From Phytoseiulus persimilis (lineage: Eukaryota; Arthropoda; Arachnida; Mesostigmata; Phytoseiidae), in the NCBI GenBank assembly GCA_037576195.1, contig CM075103.1:23064001-23128000 (forward strand): 64,000 nt of DNA, written 5' to 3'. The notes below the pieces were generated by a model, which searched no databases, was not told where the DNA came from, and was given only the letters and a program-made list of their open reading frames with translations. Shown piece after piece: positions 1,092 through 41,710 of this stretch (position 1 is its first letter; the number at the start of each line of letters is the position of its first letter). Both the position numbers and the translations under genes were made by a program.

Positions 1092-2153
1092 TCAGTCGTC
1101 TATTTTAAACCAATACTGTTTGTTCTTGAGATCCAGCAATGCTAGCACACGACTCAGGGATGCAACAGTTTCTTGTAGTTTAGTCAGATACTGCTTTATG
1201 CTCAACCTCAGTTCTGAATTTTTTACCAAGGTGGAAGTTCTGAACGGAGGTAGTTGAGACTGCATGTGAATATACTTCATGTGCTTCGTGGCGTTCTCGA
1301 CACATACGTCCCGATCCTTCGTCTGACTGAAGCCGTCCAACTTGGGACATAAGAAGCACGACGAGTGGTAAACTTGATCGTTCTCATAGAAGGCTAACAC
1401 AATAAGACGTTCGAAAAATATTGTTGATTTCAAATTCGTTCGAGTCTGCCACGCCGCAAAACACATCAGCTTGACGAAAGGAATCTGTATTTTACGGGCG
1501 TTCACTTCGAACTTTTTTCTCTGAGGCTCAGAGATTTCCGCCGGCGGCGGTTCGAAACAAAGAGCTCTTAGAAATTGATACACAGCCATGCGTAACGAAG
1601 CTAAACTCTGTTCCTCGGTCCAAGAGTAGGAGACCTTCATGCACTTGCGATCCTCAACCGAAGTCACCCAGCCTTCGACGTACGAGCTCGCGAATAGATC
1701 CCAGTGATAGCCGAAAAAGTCGGTGAACGTCCAGCCCTCTCCCGAACTGGTGAACACACGTTGTAGTGTGATGTGATTCCCCTCTGTAAGACATAGAAAG
1801 AAGTCCTTGAGTCTACAGCGCATTTCAGCCGAGCTTGTCAAATCTGTTCGAAAGGGAATCGCAACGACCGCAGAGTGTTTCTACGTCCTCAACGCAGAGG
1901 ATGTAACTCCCCCACTCTGGGGTTCTCCCAGATGTCGGAAGAGGAAGCGGGATCGAAGATTTCTATTCGAGGATCGCATATAAATGGATGAACGGGGGAG
2001 AACCGTGCGCTTACGTTGCTGCTGCTCGCTTCCACCTTCTTGCTCATCTTCCTCTCGTTGTTGCGGCTGTTGTGCTTCTTTGTCCGATCGCACGCAGCCG
2101 GCAGTGTTCTGTTCGTAGTCTTCAAATATCTCCTCTTTGATGATGATGACCAT
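1092..2153 (-). CDS. Family A gene, copy 1: unknown protein with C2-H2 finger (two exons)
   Basis: I do not recognise this family. The reading gives exon 1 at 2153-2015 (ATG at 2153), an intron at 2014-1784 with donor GTAAGC and acceptor TCTTACAG, and exon 2 at 1783-1092. Splicing is phase 1 and gives 276 residues without stops. Exon 1 is acidic and glutamine-rich. Exon 2 is helix-rich with aromatic motifs (WDLF, FLRALCF, AAWQTR) and then a C-x2-C ... H-x4-H pattern (CFLC, later HMKYIH), resembling a BED or C2H2 finger. A conserved QYLTKLQ block lies near the C-terminus. The intron position and phase match copies 2 and 3 at 9.1 and 15.4 kb, which supports the model. This copy ends about 14 residues earlier than copy 3 and lacks its C-terminal tail. 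It is the only copy with both an open frame and a good splice donor. Function is unknown; nucleic-acid binding is inferred from the finger pattern. Confidence 0.6.
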
Positions 2154-5100
2154 GGATTCTGACTCAGTTGCAGCTCCGCTCGTACGACTGTCACCTGCTG
2201 GATTCGATAATCAGGTAATCGAATCTCTGTCGAATCGACTCGGACCTGACTGGACAACATCGTCCGACACCGTCGCTACATCTGAAGGAGCCTCCGTTCG
2301 ATGGTTGGAAGCAAGAGCGCCTTGATCAGGGGATCTCAAACTGTGCCCCATCTTGTGAGCTGCAGTATCCCACACAACAAGGGCATGGTGATCTACGTGC
2401 TCCCGGAGGAGGGTCGTACTGCAGACCACGATGGGGACCGAAGACCCTGCGCGATTGCTGCATGCCTCTAAATGATTGCACAATTGCACTCATCAACGCT
2501 CCATCACAACCAGTTTTAATTTCGAGAATGCCGGGAACGAACTCATTCCATGAATTTTCCAGGAACAGAGGGAATGATTCTCCCAACATCTGGGCAGGAA
2601 CGGTCTCTTCGGCACCGACAAGATCCGATTCAGCCTGTCAGCAGTCTCGGAGTGAACAGTGCCGACGCTACGCTCGGAGCCTCCCCGGGTCATCATCTTG
2701 AAAGAGAAAACGTGATTAATTGGAGAATATCTTTCTTATTCCTCCGAGTCCTCATTCGAGCATTGGAGTGTTGCGTGTGTGGTTCAGCAGCTGAATCGGA
2801 TGCTGAGCTGTCGACGTTGTGGAATCTCAGGACACCGATCGAAGTTTCCTGAATAACTCTCATGGTTTTGGCTGCAGATGACAAATATTTGCCTTGAATA
2901 TCCCGGAGAAAACTTCCGCAGAGCGTCGAAGGATGCGCTGTTTCCGTCAAGGAGAGTAGCCCCAAATGGTTCTAACGGGAGACTCTTTCCGACGACTCTG
3001 ATGTTATCCCATGGGTTTTCCCTGCAATGGATACAAAGTTAGCCAGCGGGCGGCATCAGTTGTGGAGAAGGGGTCGATACCCACCTTCACAAGCCGAAAC
3101 TTGCTCATGGAACTGAAACGGGATGAAACAGAAAAATTATCCGAGAAGCAGCCTGAGCCGAGGAGAGGGAACTAAACTTGGCCCTCATAATCCAGACCAT
3201 ATCGATTTCGCTCCGCAGCCATATGGGGACCATGAATGTTCGGTATCAACGAGCAAAGTGCGAACTTGGCGCGGTTACGGTCACAAAGAGACGCTGCCGT
3301 TTGGAGCCTACAGCTCCGTGGTGCTCGTGAATGACGTCGGAGTCTCTCTCTCGAAACATAGCGTTGGATGAATCCATCCGGTTGAGCTTGCAGGTGGATC
3401 CCAGCAAGCCGAAATGCATTGGAAAACAGAGACGGCCGTACAAGAACAACGAACTCCACTTTCACAGCTGATGAGTTCAGTCCGCCGCCGAGAAACTTCT
3501 TGTAAACACCCAGGAAGAGCCTGTCAGAGTCTTCTCGCAACAGCTGATCACAAGAGATGGCGGTCAGCCCGGTGATCTAGAGGGAGAGGGGAAAACTTGT
3601 CAACAAAGTCGGAGGAGCGAATGTACCCGCGTTCGCCCGCTCGGGAATAGAGCTATCATCGAGTATGCTGTGATTTCGATGTCGAGATTGCCTGATCGAC
3701 GCGTGTTTCGACCGCGGTTCAAGAGTATCGTTTGTGGATTCGAATTCACGCGGCTTCCGGTCCTCTCTCACTCCGCGCGAGGTGAAGCTCTCTCCTAAGG
3801 CGTGGATGGCACGCGGCCTGTTTAACGTCGAGCCAGGCGATGCGCTCTGTTCCATTGCGATGCGCCAGCGCTGCTTTCCGGAACTAATGTGAGGACGATA
3901 GACGGACTTCTGCCGGCTATAATCGTGCCCTGCCACATGAAGTCTGATTCAAAGATTCTGGACAGAGGTATCGAACCAAGGGGAGGAGCCGCACCGTCCA
4001 CACGATTTCTCTGTGCGAGGACGATGGAATATGATCGAATAACAGAGGCAGAGCCAGTGGAGTGCCGCTGCGAAACGACACCCGGGGCCAAAGTGACTTT
4101 GAGAATATGCCGCCCCCTCTGACCGCGTAGACCTGATCAACAACTGAACAAGCGACCCGCGAGAAGTCGCAATGCCGCCTCTCGAAAAGCTCGAGAATCT
4201 TGAAACCTTAGGGCGCTTTCGTGAAAAAGCTCTGTTGAGAACAGCGTTGAACCCCTCGAGATCTATGGACAAACTCAGGATATCAGAGCAGCGGACATCT
4301 GGTCCCAGATCGCAAGCAAGTTCGGGGTCCGAGCCGCTCTGCGGCAAGGTTCGGCGATCGCGAAATTGATGTTGAGGGCCCTGAAGGCTGAAGAACAGCG
4401 TTGAACCGCTCGAGGTCATGGGAGTATCTTCTCAACATAACCGATGTTGATCCCGAATTTTGCAAATATCGCTCCAACTCATTGAGATTCATTCGTTCAT
4501 TAACCATTTCTTGTCCATATAAATCTCGTTACATGTCAGATATCCCATGCGCGGGGGCGAGTAGACTCTGCTGGTCAGGATCAGTCGTTGATCTTGCGGG
4601 GATGTATTCCTTCGTTTCTTTCTCTCATCTTTCTAGACTTCGTTTGGTCCACTCTACTTTTCCTTTCATTGAGTCTCCATGTTGGGCTAGCCTTCTGCAG
4701 ATCTCGTGCATGCTTTGATTCGTTCTTCCACCTCTTTTCGGAAAGTTTTCCGGCTTCGACAACCTCCTGTCGAACTCCCTCTCCTCCCAAAGCTCTTTCA
4801 ACGTTTCGGCGAGACGTTCCCTGACCACTGTTCTGGAAAAAGATAAGTCAGAAGGCTCAATGGGAATCTGCCGTCACCTGTTCTCCAGATTCTCGGAACG
4901 ATTGTCCCGAAGATGGTCATCGGACCCCCGAGGGCCGTACATCCTGGGCAGGGTCGAGACTTCAGTCGTGGGAGTTCCATCTCGCGGGGGCACGTTATTC
5001 ATTCATTGTCGGGAAGCGGTCCGTTCCCACTAGCTCATCAAATGACGATATTGAGGTGAACCGTACGACTGAGTCGCTCCGACAGCCTGAGTTGTTCCGT

Positions 5101-15374: not shown

Positions 15375-16379
15375 TTACCTGAAGTAATCGGTGACCCTCT
15401 GTTTCCGTCCCTTCGGAATGGACTTCTTGAACCAGTATTCTTCCTCCTTGAGATCCAGGAAGGCCAACGCTCTGCTGGTAGAAGCTATGTTCTGTTGTAG
15501 TTTTGTTAGATACTGAGCTACCGTGAGCTTCAACTCCGTACATTCCCTAGTTCGGAAAGCTAGCTTCCTGAGAGGTGCAACGCGCCGCTGGTGGAAATTC
15601 TGCAGATGTAACGCAGCCTTCTGCACTCCTATGTCGAGCTTATTCGTCGGTTCGAGTCTATCCAACTTCGGGCAGAAAATGCAAGAAGACCGATATATTT
15701 TCCGATCCTCGAGATACGCCACCACAATAGCACTCTTGAAGGATACAAGCGAGTCCGATTTCCTTCGCGTCTGCCATGCTGCATAGCATAACAACTTGAC
15801 GAAGGGAATCTGAATTTTCCGCGATTTGATCGCGTTCTCCTCCTTGCGAGACTCCGATGTGTCAATTGGTAGCGGTCTGAAGCAAAGAGCCCTCAGGAAT
15901 CTGTGGACAGCCATTCGCAAAGGGTCCAGAGTGAATTCTTCCATCAGAGAATACGGCACCGTGACGACTTTCGTGCCGCCCAAGAGAGGATTGAACACGT
16001 CGATTGTCGTCACCCAGTTCTCCACGTAGGATTCCGCGAACAAATCCCAGAGCGCACCGAAGAAGCTGGTGAACGTGTTGTCGCCACCGGGACCCCCGAA
16101 GACGAGACTCAGCGTGTCCAGGCGAACTCCTGTGAACCCGCCGAAGGAACCCGGTAAGGTCAGTGTTGGCGGTGTCCCATTGCTCCGATTTCACGTCCTC
16201 TTGCCTTTATGTTGTTGCTCATCCCCTTCGGCATCTTCCTCCCCCGGTTGATGGAATTCAACGAACGACTCCGAATCTTCATCACTGGCCAGCTCGGATC
16301 CGTCAGAAAGCTCTATCACGACACCATCCTCGGCTGCTTCTGCTCGAGCGTTGTATCCTGCTGAATCAAGGAAGAACAT
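15375..16379 (-). CDS. Family A gene, copy 3: finger protein with PCNA-like C-terminal motif, splice donor mutated
   Basis: The first ATG is at 16379. By alignment to copies 1 and 2, exon 1 is 16379-16211, the intron 16130-16210 and exon 2 16129-15375, phase 1, about 307 residues. The donor base pair reads AT (ATAAAG) where copy 1 has GT (GTAAGC). An in-frame TGA at 16191-16193 lies in the unspliced intron, so normal splicing may be lost. Exon 2 itself is fully open. It holds WDLFAESYVENW, FLRALCF, the C-x2-C ... H-x4-H finger (CIFC, then HLQNFH) and the QYLTKLQ block. It ends in KQRVTDYFR, which fits a PCNA-interacting box with Lys in place of Gln. The final codons (AGG TAA GA) also form a perfect splice donor, so a further exon is possible. 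It is either a recent pseudogene or a gene with an altered first exon. Confidence 0.55.
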
Positions 16380-34620: not shown

Positions 34621-34764
34621 CAGATCCTCCGAAGCCTGGAGAACGGTCTCATTATTCGCCGTTGCTAGCAGTAATCAAGAAGCAGGCTACATGGATTTAA
34701 TTTATATCAGAATTAAATCTGAACCATTTTAAGACCCGAGCCCACCGCCCGGCAAAACTCGGTA

Positions 34765-35475
34765 AAGGGTCTCGGCAGTTTTTCGGCACTTTTGGCCTCG
34801 GGTCAGAGATTCGAATGAGATATATTGTTGTGGATACCCCATCCCAAGAGAATACTTTTTGTCCAGTCGGCGGGCTGCTAGCTGCCTTGTTTTATTTATA
34901 GCATGAAACATCTTCTGCACCGATGGAAACCGAGCGAGATTTGAAAACTTAAAATGCTCATATCTCCGTTATCTGAAGGAGTTCAGAGCTCATAAAGTGG
35001 GTTTTGAAAAGCTTGTGAATCCAGCTTTACGATGCGTCCCTCAGAGTTTTTCCACGATCAATTTTAATACCTTCAAAATGACCAACTTCAAAGTGAATGT
35101 TTCTAACCCACTTCCTGGAGGTTGACCACTTTCTAGTTTGTGTCATATTATGCCCCCCTTCAAAGCGAGCACAATGCGATAGATAGATCAAAAAAATATT
35201 TGGGGGACCAAGGTGAAAAAACTAAAAAACTGTCGTTGGTCACCCTGAATTGATCGCGTTTCATGCTCAAACTCCAGAATATTTGATGGTAGAAGGTCCC
35301 GAGCCAGGGAAAATCATATTCTGAGCCGTTGAACACACGGAATCAGCCGCCCAGACACCCAAGAGTTTGGTCAGATCGGTCCCGGAATTACCCGCCCAGA
35401 CTCCCAAAGGTATGGTCAGATTGGCCCCGAAATCACCCCTCCAGACTTGTGAAAACTATGGTCAGATTAGCCCCG
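34765..35475 (+). repeat. Left inverted arm of the foldback element
   Basis: It pairs with 41035-41708 in inverted orientation. The part before 35345 is unique sequence. From there to 35475 are about three satellite units, in the orientation opposite to the main array. Confidence 0.85.
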
Positions 35476-35629
35476 GACGATGATGCCCGGACCTCGTGAT
35501 GCATTATTTTCATGCGTGCATGTGGCGTGGACTGCAGCGTCACCGCTGCGCGGCCATTTTGTGCTAGTACACACAGTTCCGATTGCCCCAGCTTGAACAC
35601 TCTCGAACAGCGAATCAACGCCTCCAGAC

Positions 35630-36252
35630 ATGCCTAAGTTCGAAATCGCCGAGTGTGCAGTTTGTAATGTTCGCCTTGATAAGGGAGTGGGCAGAATTAA
35701 GATCGTGCGAACGCCGGAAGAGGCCGCAAGATTCACTGAATACCACGGCACGCAGATATCTCTGAACGATTCTCTCTGCGGACGCTGCCGTATCTTACGA
35801 GGTAGCACCGGAGGATCTTCCCGGGCCTGACACGTGAGGATTTACTCCTGTTGACTTCAGGACCGTTCCGACTCAAGCTGGTATGCTCGTGCTTGGCGGA
35901 ACTCTTGACAGGCGACAACAATGCCCTACTGAGGTTTGTCGAAGAAACACCCAATATCGTTCGTGTAGAAATCAGGTCGCGCCATTGTGGACCCAGCAGC
36001 AGAAAAAACTACCATGTATTCATCGATTACGAACCAAACCTGCATCAACTCGACGGCATTCGGGGATACTGGTGTGACTGTCCTAATGGGGCACGGACAG
36101 TGGGCTGCTGTTCGCATGTGGCCGCGTGCATCTACTACCTGTCTTTCGCCAGGCATGAGCCACGAATTCGGCTGCCGGCACCGGAACTAACGGACCTCTT
36201 CATGCCATCTGGAGACGATACAGAGTCAGAAGACGATGGAACCAACACTTGA
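35630..36252 (+). CDS. SWIM zinc-finger protein (two exons), carried by the foldback element
   Basis: Exon 1 is 35630-35801, the intron 35802-35860 (donor GTAGCA, acceptor TGACTTCAG) and exon 2 35861-36252. Splicing is phase 1 and gives 187 residues without a stop. C9-x2-C12 and C50-x2-C53 could bind one zinc. C129-x-C131 and C141-x-H143 (CDCP ... GCCSHV) form a SWIM finger, followed by a hydrophobic helix (ACIYYLSFARH). The tail is acidic. SWIM fingers bind DNA or protein and occur in MULE transposases. Short proteins with this finger wording (GARTVGCCSH) recur in invertebrate genomes; a mobile-element role is inference. An AATAAA follows at 36261-36266, only nine bases after the stop. The ATG is the first in frame. 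It is the only open gene in this nest. Confidence 0.75.
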
Positions 36253-36399
36253 GGAGCGAGAATAAACGAAACCGCTCGAGACCACCGAACGTGTTCTCAA
36301 TTTTAGCTCGAAGTCGATTTCTCCGAGGGTGTCTCGGCTCATAACGTGATTCTTTCTTGCTTTGGGCCTGACACGGTCAGATTATTTTGAGGTTTGTTC

Positions 36400-39300
36400 G
36401 AAATCGACCAATCTGACCACAGTTTTTAAAGCTGGAGGGGTTATTCCGGGACCGATCTGACCATACTTTTCAAAAGCTGGAGGGGTGATTCCGGGGCCAA
36501 TCTGACCATACTCTTCCAAGTCTGGAGGGGTGATTTCGGGGCCAATCTGACCATACTTTTCACAAGTCTGGAGGGGTGATTCCGGGACATATCTGATCAT
36601 GGTTTTCAAAAGCTGAAGGGGTTATTCCGGGACCGATCTGACCATACTTTCCAAAAGCTGGAGGGGTGATTCCGGGGCCAATCTGACCATACCTTTGGGA
36701 GTCTGGGCGGGTAATTCCGGGATCGATCTGACCATACCTTTCAAAAGCTGGAGGGATTATTCCGGGACCAATCTGACCATACTTTTCCAAGTCTGGAGGG
36801 GTGATTTCGGGGCCAATCTGACCATACTTTTCACAAGTCTGGAGGGTTGATTCCGGGACATATCTGACCATGGTTTTTAAAAACTGAAGGGGTTATTCCG
36901 GGACCGATCTGACCATACTTTTCAAAAGCTGGAGGGGTGATTCCGGAGCCAATCTGACCATACTCTTCCAAGTCTGGAGGGGTGATTTCGGGGCCAATCT
37001 GACCATACTTTTCACAAGTCTGGAGGGGTGATTCCGGGACATATCTGACCATGGTTTTTAAAAGCTGAAGGGGTTATTCCGGGACCGATCTGACCATACT
37101 TTTCAAAAGCTGGAGGGGTGATTCCGGGGCCAATCTGACCATACCTTTGGAGTCTGGGCGGGTAATTCCGGGATCGATCTGACCATACCTTTCAAAAGCT
37201 GGAGGGATTATTCCGGGACCAATCTGACCATACTTTTCCAAGTCTGGAGGGGTGATTTCGGGGCCAATCTGACCATACTTTTCACAAGTCTGGAGGGTTG
37301 ATTCCGGGACATATCTGACCATGGTTTTTAAAAGCTGAAGGGGTTATTCCGGGACCGATCTGACCATACTTTTCAAAAGCTGGAGGGGTGATTCCGGGGC
37401 CAATCTGACCATACTCTTCCAAGTCTGGAGGGGTGATTTCGGGGCCAATCTGACCATACGTTTCACAAGTCTGGAGGGGTGATTCCGGGACATATCTGAC
37501 CATGGTTTTTAAAAGCTGGAGGGGTTATTCCGGGACCGATCTGACCATACTTTTCAAAAGCTGGAGGGGTGATTCCGGGGCCAATCTGACCATACTCTTC
37601 CAAGTCTGGAGGGGTGATTTCGGGGCCAATCTGACCATACTTTTCACAAGTCTGGAGGGTTGATTCCGGGACATATCTGACCATGGTTTTTAAAAGCTGA
37701 AGGGGTTATTCCGGGACCGATCTGACCATACTTTTCAAAAGCTGGAGGGGTGATTCCGGGGCCAATCTGACCATACTCTTCCAAGTCTGGAGGGGTGCTT
37801 TCGGGGCCAATCTGACCATACTTTTCACAAGTCTGGAGGGTTGATTCCGGGACATATCTGACCATGGTTTTTAAAAGCTGAAGGGATTATTCCGGGACCG
37901 ATCTGACCATACTTTTCAAAAGCTGGAGGGGTGATTCCGGGGCCAATCTGACCATACTCTTCCAAGTCTGGAGGGGTGATTTCGAGGCCAATCTGACCAT
38001 ACTTTTCACAAGTCTGGAGGGGTGATTCCGGGACATATCTGACCATGGTTTTTAAAAGCTGAAGGGGTTATTCCGGGACCGATCTGACCATACTTTTCAA
38101 AAGCTGGAGGGGTGATTCCGGGGCCAATCTGACCATACTCTTCCAAGTCTGGAGGGGTGATTTCGGGGCCAATCTGACCATACTTTTCACAAGTCTGGAG
38201 GGGTGATTCCGGGACATATCTGACCATGGTTTTTAAAAGCTGAAGGGGTTATTCCGGGACCGATCTGACCATACTTTTCAAAAGCTGGAGGGGTGATTCC
38301 GGGGCCAATCTGACCATACTCTTCCAAGTCTGGAGGGGTGATTTCGGGGCCAATCTGACCATACTTTTCACAAGTCTGGAGGGGTGATTCCGGGACATAT
38401 CTGACCATGGTTTTTAAAAGCTGAAGGGATTATTCCGGGACCGATCTGACCATACTTTTCAAAAGCTGGAGGGGTGATTCCGGGGCCAATCTGACCATAC
38501 TCTTCCAAGTCTGGAGGGGTGATTTCGGGGCCAATCTGACCATACTTTTCACAAGTCTGGAGGGGTGATTCCGGGACATATCTGACCATGGTTTTTAAAA
38601 GCTGAAGGGGTTATTCCGGGACCGATCTGACCATACTTTTCAAAAGCTGGAGGGGTGATTCCGGGGCCAATTTGACCATACCTTTGGAGTCTGGGCGGGT
38701 AATTCCGGGATCGATCTGACCATACCTTTCAAGAGCTGGAGGGATTATTCCGGGACCAATCTGACCATACTTTTCCAAGTCTGGAGGGGTGATTTCGGGG
38801 CCAATCTGACCATACTTTTCACAAGTCTGGAGGGTTGATTCCGGGACATATCTGACCATGGTTTTTAAAAGCTGAAGGGGTTATTCCGGGACCGATCTGA
38901 CCATACTTTCCAAAAGCTGGAGGGGTGATTCCGGGGCCAATCTGACCATACCTTTGGGAGTCTGGGCGGGTAATTCCGGGATCGATCTGACCATACCTTT
39001 CAAAAGCTGGAGGGATTATTCCGGGACCAATCTGACCATACTTTTCCAAGTCTGGAGGGGTGATTTCGGGGCCAATCTGACCATACTTTTCACAAGTCTG
39101 GAGGGTTGATTCCGGGACATATCTGACCATGGTTTTTAAAAACTGAAGGGGTTATTCCGGGACCGATCTGACCATACTTTTCAAAAGCTGGAGGGGTGAT
39201 TCCGGGGCCAATCTGACCATACTCTTCCAAGTCTGGAGGGGTGATTTCGGGGCCAATCTGACCATACTTTTCACAAGTCTGGAGGGGTGATTCCGGGACA

Positions 39301-41102
39301 TATCTGACCATGGTTTTTAAAAGCTGAAGGGGTTATTCCGGGACCGATCTGACCATACTTTTCAAAAGCTGGAGGGGTGATTCCGGGGCCAATCTGACCA
39401 TACCTTTGGAGTCTGGGCGGGTAATTCCGGGATCGATCTGACCATACCTTTCAAAAGCTGGAGGGAATATTCCGGGACCAATCTGACCATACTTTTCCAA
39501 GTCTGGAGGGGTGATTTCGGGGCCAATCTGACCATACTTTTCACAAGTCTGGAGGGTTGATTCCGGGACATATCTGACCATGGTTTTTAAAAGCTGAAGG
39601 GGTTATTCCGGGACCGATCTGACCATACTTTTCACAAGTCTGGAGGGGTGATTCCGGGGCCAATCTGACCATACTCTTCCAAGTCTGGAGGGGTGATTTC
39701 GGGGCCAATCTGACCATACGTTTCACAAGTCTGGAGGGGTGATTCCGGGACATATCTGACCATGGTTTTTAAAAGCTGGAGGGGTTATTCCGGGACCGAT
39801 CTGACCATACTTTTCAAAAGCTGGAGGGGTGATTCCGGGGCCAATCTGACCATACTCTTCCAAGTCTGGAGGGGTGATTTCGGGGCCAATCTGACCATAC
39901 TTTTCACAAGTCTGGAGGGTTGATTCCGGGACATATCTGACCATGGTTTTTAAAAGCTTAAGGGGTTATTCCGGGACCGATCTGACCATACTTTTCAAAA
40001 GCTGGAGGGGTGATTCCGGGGCCAATCTGACCATACTCTTCCAAGTCTGGAGGGGTGATTTCGGGGCCAATCTGACCATACTTTTCACAAGTCTGGAGGG
40101 TTGATTCCGGGACATATCTGACCATGGTTTTTAAAAGCTGAAGGGATTATTCCGGGACCGATCTGACCATACTTTTCAAAAGCTGGAGGGGTGATTCCGG
40201 GGCCAATCTGACCATACTCTTCCAAGTCTGGAGGGGTGATTTCGAGGCCAATCTGACCATACTTTTCACAAGTCTGGAGGGGTGATTCCGGGACATATCT
40301 GACCATGGTTTTTAAAAGCTGAAGGGGTTATTCCGGGACCGATCTGACCATACTTTTCAAAAGCTGGAGGGGTGATTCCGGGGCCAATCTGACCATACTC
40401 TTCCAAGTCTGGAGGGGTGATTTCGGGGCCAATCTGGCCATACTTTTCACAAGTCTGGATGGGTGATTCCGGGACATATCTGACCATGGTTTTTAAAAGC
40501 TGAAGGGGTTATTCCGGGACCGATCTGACCATACTTTTCAAAAGCTGGAGGGGTGATTCCGGGGCCAATCTGACCATACTCTTCCAAGTCTGGAGGGGTG
40601 ATTTCGGGGCCAATCTGACCATACTTTTCACAAGTCTGGAGGGGTGATTCCGGGACATATCTGACCATGGTTTTTAAAAGCTGAAGGGGTTATTCCGGGA
40701 CCGATCTGACCATACTTTTCAAAAGCTGGAGGGGTGATTCCGGGGCCAATCTGACCATACCTTTGGGAGTCTGGGCGGGTAATTCCGGGATCGATCTGAC
40801 CATACTTTTCAAAAACTCGAGGGGTGGTTCCGGGACCAATCTGACCATACTTTTCCAAGTCTGGAGGGGTGATTTCGGGGCCAATCTGACCATACTTTCC
40901 ACAAGTCTGGAGGGGTGATTCCGGGACATATCTGACCATAGTTTTTAAGAGCTGGAGGGATTATTCAGGGACCGATCTGACCATACTTCTCAAAAGCTCG
41001 AGGGGTGGTTCCGGGACCAATCTGACCATACTCTTCCAAGTCTGGAGGGGTGATTTCGGGGCCAATCTGACCATACCTTTGGGAGTCTGGGCGGGTAATT
41101 CC
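36400..41102. repeat. 45-bp satellite array with 181-bp higher-order repeat
   Basis: About 104 units follow head to tail. Four unit types alternate in fixed order. Three are 45 bases long: type A with GACCATGGTTTTTAAAAGCT, type B with GACCATACTTTTCAAAAGCT and type C with GACCATACTCTTCCAAGTCT. Type D, with GACCATACTTTTCACAAGTC, is 46 bases, giving 181. In several places (for example near 36.7, 37.15, 38.7, 38.95, 39.4 and 40.75 kb) two further types with GACCATACCTTTGGGAGTCT and GACCATACCTTTCAAAAGCT make a six-unit version of about 270 bases. The minus strand reads as a 15-residue repeat (YGQIGPGITPPAFEK), but the 46-base unit breaks the frame once per 181 bases. It is not a gene. Confidence 0.97.
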
Positions 41103-41708
41103 GTGTCTTCCTAGGCTCAAAATATGATTTTCCCTGGCTCGGGGCCTTCAACCATCAAATATTCTGGAGTTTGAGCATGAAACTCGATGAATTCAGGGTG
41201 ACCAACGACAGTTTTTTAGTTTTTTCACCTTGGTCCCCCAAATATTTTTTTGATCTATCCATCGCATTGTGCTCGCACTGAAGGGGGCATAATATGACAC
41301 AAACTGGGAAGTGGTCAACCTAAAGGAAGTGGGTTAGAAACATTCACTTTGAAGATGGTCATTTTGAAGGTATTAAAATTTATCGCGGAAAAACTCTGAC
41401 GGACGCATCGGAAAGCTGGATTCACGAGCTTTCCAAAACCCACTTTATGAGCTCTGAAATCCTCCACGGGTTAGCCCGTCGGCTGTGTCGGGAAGGCTGG
41501 GTTAGCCTTCAGGTAACGGATATATGAGCATTTTAAGTTTTCAAATCTCGCTCGGTTTTCATCGGTCCAGAAGATGTTTCATGCTATAAAAAAAAAAGGC
41601 AGCTAGGAGCCCGCCGACTGGACAGAAAGTGTTCTCTTGGGATGGGGTATCCACAACAATATATCTCATTCGAATCCCTGACCCAAGGCCAAAAGTGCCG
41701 AGACCCTT
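41035..41708 (-). repeat. Right inverted arm of the foldback element
   Basis: Inverse of 34765-35475. It carries about 44 extra bases near 41465-41510 containing GGGTTAGCC twice, which is absent from the left arm, and a longer A run near 41588. Confidence 0.85.
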
Positions 41709-41710
41709 TA

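Follow-up and report, generated by a model that had tools for sequence, protein, structure and literature searches.

Spy transposons are described as inserting into AAATTT without duplicating it and as having terminal inverted repeats of 5 to 691 bp and a DDE transposase of about 700 amino acids (PMC4482050; PMC11304231). One of them, cgSpy of Colletes gigas, is active (PMC11304231). An AT target duplication is given for ISL2EU and a TWA target duplication for PIF/Harbinger (PMC4482050). The non-autonomous Tetris of Drosophila virilis has tandem repeats of about 220 bp in its inverted arms, long satellite-like arrays of these repeats at other places in its genome, and 8- to 10-bp duplications; its authors put it in Mutator and did not find the source of its transposase (PMC4079207). 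There, too, the tandem repeats in the arms of Galileo, of the P superfamily, are said to hold additional transposase-binding sites (PMC4079207). Here we analyzed a 64,000-nucleotide stretch of the Phytoseiulus persimilis genome (GCA_037576195.1, contig CM075103.1, positions 23,064,001 to 23,128,000 of the forward strand), which we call the window; coordinates are those of the window unless a locus is named. An earlier reading of this DNA, the original prediction, had proposed an undescribed class of foldback element with an intact SWIM-finger gene. We found instead a 6,940-bp element that is almost certainly a non-autonomous, foldback-like, internally deleted derivative of a Spy DNA transposon (Table 1).

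The insertion point was read from sites that lack the element. The host is a BEL element, as originally proposed, and in the three best paralogous loci among the BEL matches the empty site reads ...AACTCGGTAAA/TTTATCACAACAAG..., with the element at the slash and no target duplication; one of the three has CAA/TTT. Two further copies, L057 and L058, sit in copies of an abundant repeat resembling a short interspersed element (SINE). Three empty copies of this repeat, read among matches for which the best 40 of 974 and the best 40 of 1,018 candidates were scored, also give AAA/TTT with no duplication. L057 and L058 occupy the same AAATTT of the SINE-like repeat in opposite orientation at different places, and we rejected the idea that they are one inverted locus. 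In 18 other complete copies, 34 of the 36 ends are AAA or TTT; L056 and L060 were excluded as rearranged or lacking one end. This count is slightly favored because the end-finding pattern includes AAA, with two mismatches allowed. Internal sites that this pattern also matched were set aside as not being ends. The base preceding AAA differs among copies, so the border is not TA, contrary to the original prediction; the order is AAA, element, TTT. The predicted mobile element at 34765 to 41708 is thus real, with its true boundaries lying two bases in at each end.

We rejected ISL2EU and PIF/Harbinger because the AT and TWA duplications are absent at the BEL empty site. A Mutator-type foldback element was rejected because an 8- to 12-bp duplication is absent at the empty site and at the ends of the copies. 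Judged by target site, lack of duplication, and homology, the element is a Spy (PHIS superfamily). It resembles described Spy elements in its AAA/TTT target, the absence of a duplication, its terminal inverted repeats, and the PHIS-type DDE transposase at related loci. It differs from them in that its arms hold tandem repeats of 45 bp, with which the left arm reaches 711 bp, and in that the window copy is internally deleted. The long inverted arms of unique sequence plus satellite units were described correctly at the outset: they are complementary over 291 nucleotides at 89%, 184 at 93%, and 114 at 94%, and the left arm has 11 additional bases near its tip compared with the right.

A search for a full-length relative carrying a transposase, suggested with the original prediction, led to L049. 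This copy has the same arms and spacers as the window copy, plus about 1.5 kb of extra sequence between what had been read as two exons. In L049 the DDE domain follows the first coding piece without a change of frame, and the last piece encodes the terminal part of that protein, so that the gene runs from an N-terminal cysteine region through a DDE_Tnp_4 domain (a partial match to PF13359, positions 71 to 150, 38 bits) to a C-terminal SWIM finger. When the window was aligned with L049, the alignment jumped from 1596 to 3043 across a shared CTTC, and 1,446 bp of L049 were missing. This deletion took the whole catalytic domain and left the two remaining parts in different frames; it may have arisen through faulty repair at the 4-bp microhomology. 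We reconstructed exon 1 of the original prediction as 35630 to 35801 and the start of exon 2 as 35861. The "intron" between them (35802 to 35860) spans the scar, and in L049 its GT and AG belong to the coding sequence. The supposedly intact two-exon gene is therefore a single-frame transposase gene whose two remaining parts were brought together by a deletion. L049 is itself broken, since its coding sequence is spread over two open frames, of 405 and 372 codons, that overlap. Two other copies, L050 and L060, are also deleted, and the junctions in these and in the window correspond to different points of L049.

Six related loci, found when the best 150 of 338 candidates were scored, have DDE and SWIM in a single open frame of 664 to 733 codons, with SWIM parts that are 56 to 57% identical. 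Together with L049 they represent the PHIS-type transposase of about 700 amino acids whose gene is deleted in the window copy. We aligned 22 rows, namely, the C-terminal half of L049 and 21 of 120 listed homologues (188 homologues were found among 7,996 scored). All 22 have the C-x-C...C-x-H pattern of the SWIM finger without exception, so SWIM belongs to the transposase. Two further residues, the D of DRGF and the E of VE.VHG, do not vary either; we take them to be the second and third catalytic residues. The Pfam SWIM model (PF04434) scores 15.8 bits on the 3' remnant of the window, below its cutoff of 19.6, and at or below the cutoff on the related transposases, so the name SWIM rests mainly on the invariant pattern. 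We found no Mutator Pfam family in seven related proteins (one of the six related open frames and six homologues), and their best matches were DDE_Tnp_4 and DDE_Tnp_1. Homologous SWIM-tailed transposases occur in wasps, bees, a flea, beetles, a moth, and mites, and one of them (P0113) is from Colletes gigas, the host species of the active cgSpy.

These results bear on the proposal that the locus represents a new foldback class that carries a separate SWIM protein encoded by a captured host gene. A genome search for ends and arms, suggested with this proposal, did recover a family, and arms, repeats, and the SWIM coding piece occur together in many of its copies. However, SWIM is the C terminus of homologous transposases across the insects and mites listed above, the target site is that of Spy, and L049 and the alignment refute the proposal. 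We therefore rejected a captured host gene and give a new class next to no credence; the element agrees with Spy in its target site, the absence of a duplication, and its transposase.

According to another model, the remnant acts. A cryptic 59-bp intron would yield a 187-amino-acid protein without the catalytic domain, which would bind the arms or repeats and dampen transposition in trans. Truncated P-element repressors provide an analogy. Consistently with this, GT and AG lie at fitting places, and the GT...AG stretch is 2 mod 3 in the window (59), L050 (131), L060 (107), and L049 (1505). The same splice would thus restore the frame in the window, L050, and L060, whose three different deletions leave the coding parts in one relative frame; if the deletions are independent, the chance is about 1/9 for a shared class and 1/27 for this particular class. 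L054 and L056 also carry an in-frame methionine upstream of SWIM, in repeat-like sequence. In contrast, both splice signals belong to the normal coding sequence of a one-frame gene, and L050 has a further gap within its SWIM part. Among the 11 other short copies, the N-terminal piece is missing from 10, all but L060, and 9 lack an in-frame start codon before SWIM. The 3' remnant in the window likewise has no in-frame start codon ahead of SWIM.

Purifying selection on the remnant was not seen in the counts for the C-terminal part or in the comparison of the N-terminal piece. In the 435-bp C-terminal part, the window has 9 nonsynonymous and 6 synonymous changes, against neutral means of 10.3 and 4.3 (P for 9 or fewer, 0.32). 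The distinct changes in 13 other copies are 20 nonsynonymous, 9 synonymous, and 1 stop, against neutral values of 20.5, 8.6, and 0.9; the single "stop," in L049, is a codon with two changes that arises from base-by-base counting, and the frame of L049 is open there. These counts cover the window and 13 of 20 fetched regions (L058, L061, L067, and L068 only in part); L052, L065, and L066 have no match to the C-terminal stretch used. Between the window and L049, the N-terminal piece shows 6 nonsynonymous changes and 1 synonymous change. The open frame, put forward earlier as a sign of selection, thus fits neutral expectation. Most likely the SWIM remnant itself does nothing, and we consider a repressor made from it very improbable. 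If a SWIM-bearing protein binds the repeats, a reasonable guess is that it is the whole transposase and not the remnant in the window.

We next consider the family to which this deleted Spy belongs. Matches to the left arm and first coding piece lie at no fewer than 135 places in the 181-Mb assembly (the best 40 of 1,070 candidates were scored). Genome-wide, the left end matches 58 times with up to 3 mismatches and the right end 66 times with up to 2, whereas the reversed patterns do not match at all. Eighteen of the 20 fetched regions are complete, two-ended copies; 17 of these are 1.7 to 2.6 kb long and L049 is 3,963 bp long, with the flanking AAA and TTT included. The left arm of the window differs by 4 to 8% from those of 14 nearer copies and by 7 to 12% from those of L065 to L068, whereas that of L053 differs by only 0.2 to 0.3% from those of L055, L057, and L059. 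By arm divergence the window copy is not among the youngest of its family, contrary to the suggestion of a recent arrival. In the young copies (L053, L055, L057, and L059) the first coding piece is missing and SWIM is not preceded by a start codon, which suggests that they were mobilized in trans. The window copy, too, would have been moved by transposase made elsewhere; such a source is inferred because the L049 coding sequence is split over two frames.

Several other features of the family were observed. In L056 (C4:4920100-4926200), the Spy right end and flank are present in three tandem copies about 1,442 bp apart. At positions 465 to 480 of L050, the Spy copy adjoins the end of another family (AAAGGGTCTGGGGG...), with 5 bases separating the TTT of one from the AAA of the other. 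L031, L033, and L036 make up a second Spy family with ends AAAGGGTCTCGGCCATTA; it has the ten bases after AAA in common with the window family, and it has long open transposase frames and no 45-bp array.

The original prediction counted about 104 satellite units, and we found 103.5 units of 45 bp with a higher-order period of 181 bp. With up to 1 mismatch allowed, an anchor motif is found 103 times in the orientation of the right arm and 3 times within the left arm, and segments that are 99% identical lie about 452, 1,807, and 2,259 bp apart. The same motif identifies three right-arm units in L049 and four in L053. Because of its orientation, its continuity with the arm, and the few units in L049 and L053, the array is best interpreted as an enlarged form of the repeat block that belongs to the right arm. 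It would have grown later, through unequal exchange.

We checked 24 loci for tandem repeats, two of which (L028 and L047) overlap. The more distant Spy loci (L025 to L028 and L030 to L038), each about 3.4 kb in length, may stop short of the outer arms; 45-bp arrays are present in 8 of these 13 (L025, L026, L027, L028, L030, L034, L035, and L038). Nearer the window's family, L024 also has 45-bp arrays. Eight DDE_Tnp_4 loci (L039 to L046) have no 45-bp array. The units have a common core, GGAATCAC...AAAAGTATGGTCAGATCG. In L026, L027, L038, and L047 (which overlaps L028 and carries a full open frame), units flank the transposase on both sides and point inward. L025 and L030 have units on one side only within the sequence examined, and L034 shows just one unit, a doubtful one, on one side. 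L035 has a 45-bp array on one side (2988 to 3352 of that locus) and a SWIM part that is 55% identical; this array may belong to a neighboring copy. In a comparison of 14 loci, the window repeat matches 7 distinct loci at about 71 to 75%, and the unique arm sequence of the window has only one match, 68 bp in L033, the outer arms possibly not being reached.

One proposal is that, in one Spy lineage, the 45-bp unit is a binding platform for the transposase, contacted through its cysteine-rich N terminus or its SWIM tail, that loci with diverged transposases keep related inward units on both sides, and that expansions such as the one in the window feed a genome-wide satellite. We hold the full proposal only tentatively and think it rather unlikely. 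The units could act as extra transposase-binding sites able to grow into satellite DNA. Alternatively, the satellite came first, and several Spy families picked up the 45-bp repeat in their arms from an independent satellite. In a genome-wide repeat search the best 40 of 2,420 candidates were scored. We examined two long free arrays, L083/L085 with 151 units and both edges and L082/L084 with at least 191 units and one edge, and found no Spy arms, ends, or transposase in their fetched flanks, although the right flank of L083 is only about 0.3 kb. A flank of 66 to 84 bp, 82 to 87% identical, ends four arrays (L082, 4151 to 4234; L083, 5464 to 5541; L062, 2963 to 3046; L007, 627 to 692), so these arrays may travel on another repeat. 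The five distant Spy loci without an array are in line with a satellite origin as well. However, the inverted, inward units on both sides in L026, L027, L038, L047, and the window family fit an old part of the element better. We regard a satellite origin as possible but on balance unlikely.

Some points weigh against our interpretation of the locus as an internally deleted Spy with arm repeats that would bind the transposase. The assignment to Spy was made from target site, absence of a duplication, and homology, not from a tree with reference Spy proteins. To the left of the insertion only 11 bases are identical between the window and the BEL paralogues, because beyond them a SINE-like fragment stands in for the BEL sequence. 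Among the candidates scored (40 of 1,070 and 150 of 338), none had an intact transposase of exactly the window subfamily. The single relative frame left by three different deletions and the upstream methionines of L054 and L056 also count here, both as weak points. Five of the 13 distant loci (L031, L032, L033, L036, and L037) have no 45-bp array within their approximately 3.4 kb, and neither does L023, of the window's own family, within the sequence examined. Finally, binding of the 45-bp unit by the transposase is a proposal that we treat as a working model.

Table 1. Features of the Spy-derived element and its insertion site in the window
Feature	Coordinates	Strand	Basis
Host target site, left (AAA)	34764-34766		Empty site AACTCGGTAAA/TTTATCACAAC in BEL paralogues; CAA/TTT in one of three
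Whole element, internally deleted Spy-type transposon, GGGTCTCGGC...GCCGAGACCC	34767-41706		Ends, empty site, and arms common to copies genome-wide
Left arm (terminal inverted repeat)	34767-35477	+	35338-35477 is 3.1 units of the 45-bp repeat
Transposon sequence 5' of the coding remnant	35478-35629	+	About 96% identity to L049
5' transposase remnant: start codon and C-x-x-C...C-x-x-C region, to the deletion scar	35630-35820	+	Aligns to L049 through its position 1596
Deletion scar, 4 bp (CTTC) common to both sides	35817-35820	+	Two alignment pieces overlap by four bases
3' transposase remnant: SWIM motif and stop codon	35817-36252	+	Alignment to L049; SWIM columns
Transposon sequence from the coding remnant to the right-arm repeats	36253-36405	+	About 94% identity to L049
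Expanded 45-bp array of the right arm, about 103 units	36406-41080	-	181-bp higher-order period
Outer right arm (terminal inverted repeat)	41081-41706	-	Arm complementarity and comparison with copies
Host target site, right (TTT)	41707-41709		BEL match continues through TTT

Other observations in the window concern its surroundings. Positions 34693 to 34751 are a fragment of a very abundant repeat, which we take to be SINE-like with a tRNA-like head, and this fragment replaces about half a kilobase of BEL left of the insertion. The minus strand has open frames of 262 and 271 codons (1092 to 1880 and 15375 to 16190) that are alike by eye and are possibly copies of one protein family.

The closest described parallels share parts of this arrangement. 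Like Tetris, the window element combines repeat-bearing inverted arms with free arrays of the same repeat, here the 45-bp unit; unlike Tetris, it has 45-bp repeats, makes no duplication, and has a transposase-bearing relative. Galileo is similar in its tandem repeats within long inverted arms and different in its transposase superfamily and THAP domain, and binding in the window's Spy is only proposed. The main texts of PMC4482050 and PMC11304231 contain no mention of a SWIM finger, a term search of PMC8504770 gave no mention of Spy, and the opening parts of abstracts on Spy/PHIS, satellite DNA, and mite genomes name no tandem repeats in Spy arms.

The analysis removes a candidate new class of element. 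The window copy has met an ordinary fate for a DNA transposon, that of being internally deleted, and it belongs to a known group, Spy. The interesting side is what is distinctive about it, namely, repeat-bearing arms common to several Spy loci and a repeat block grown to satellite size. One genome shows Spy relatives, deletions, target site, and repeat expansion together, and the invariant SWIM finger helps to recognize orphan "SWIM-type" proteins as transposon remnants. Tetris had already pointed to a connection of foldback arms with satellites. Since a transposase-bearing relative is present here, in contrast to Tetris, the binding of arm repeats and the seeding of satellites can be tested. 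If the binding-platform model is true, one transposon lineage would both use satellite DNA and keep making it.

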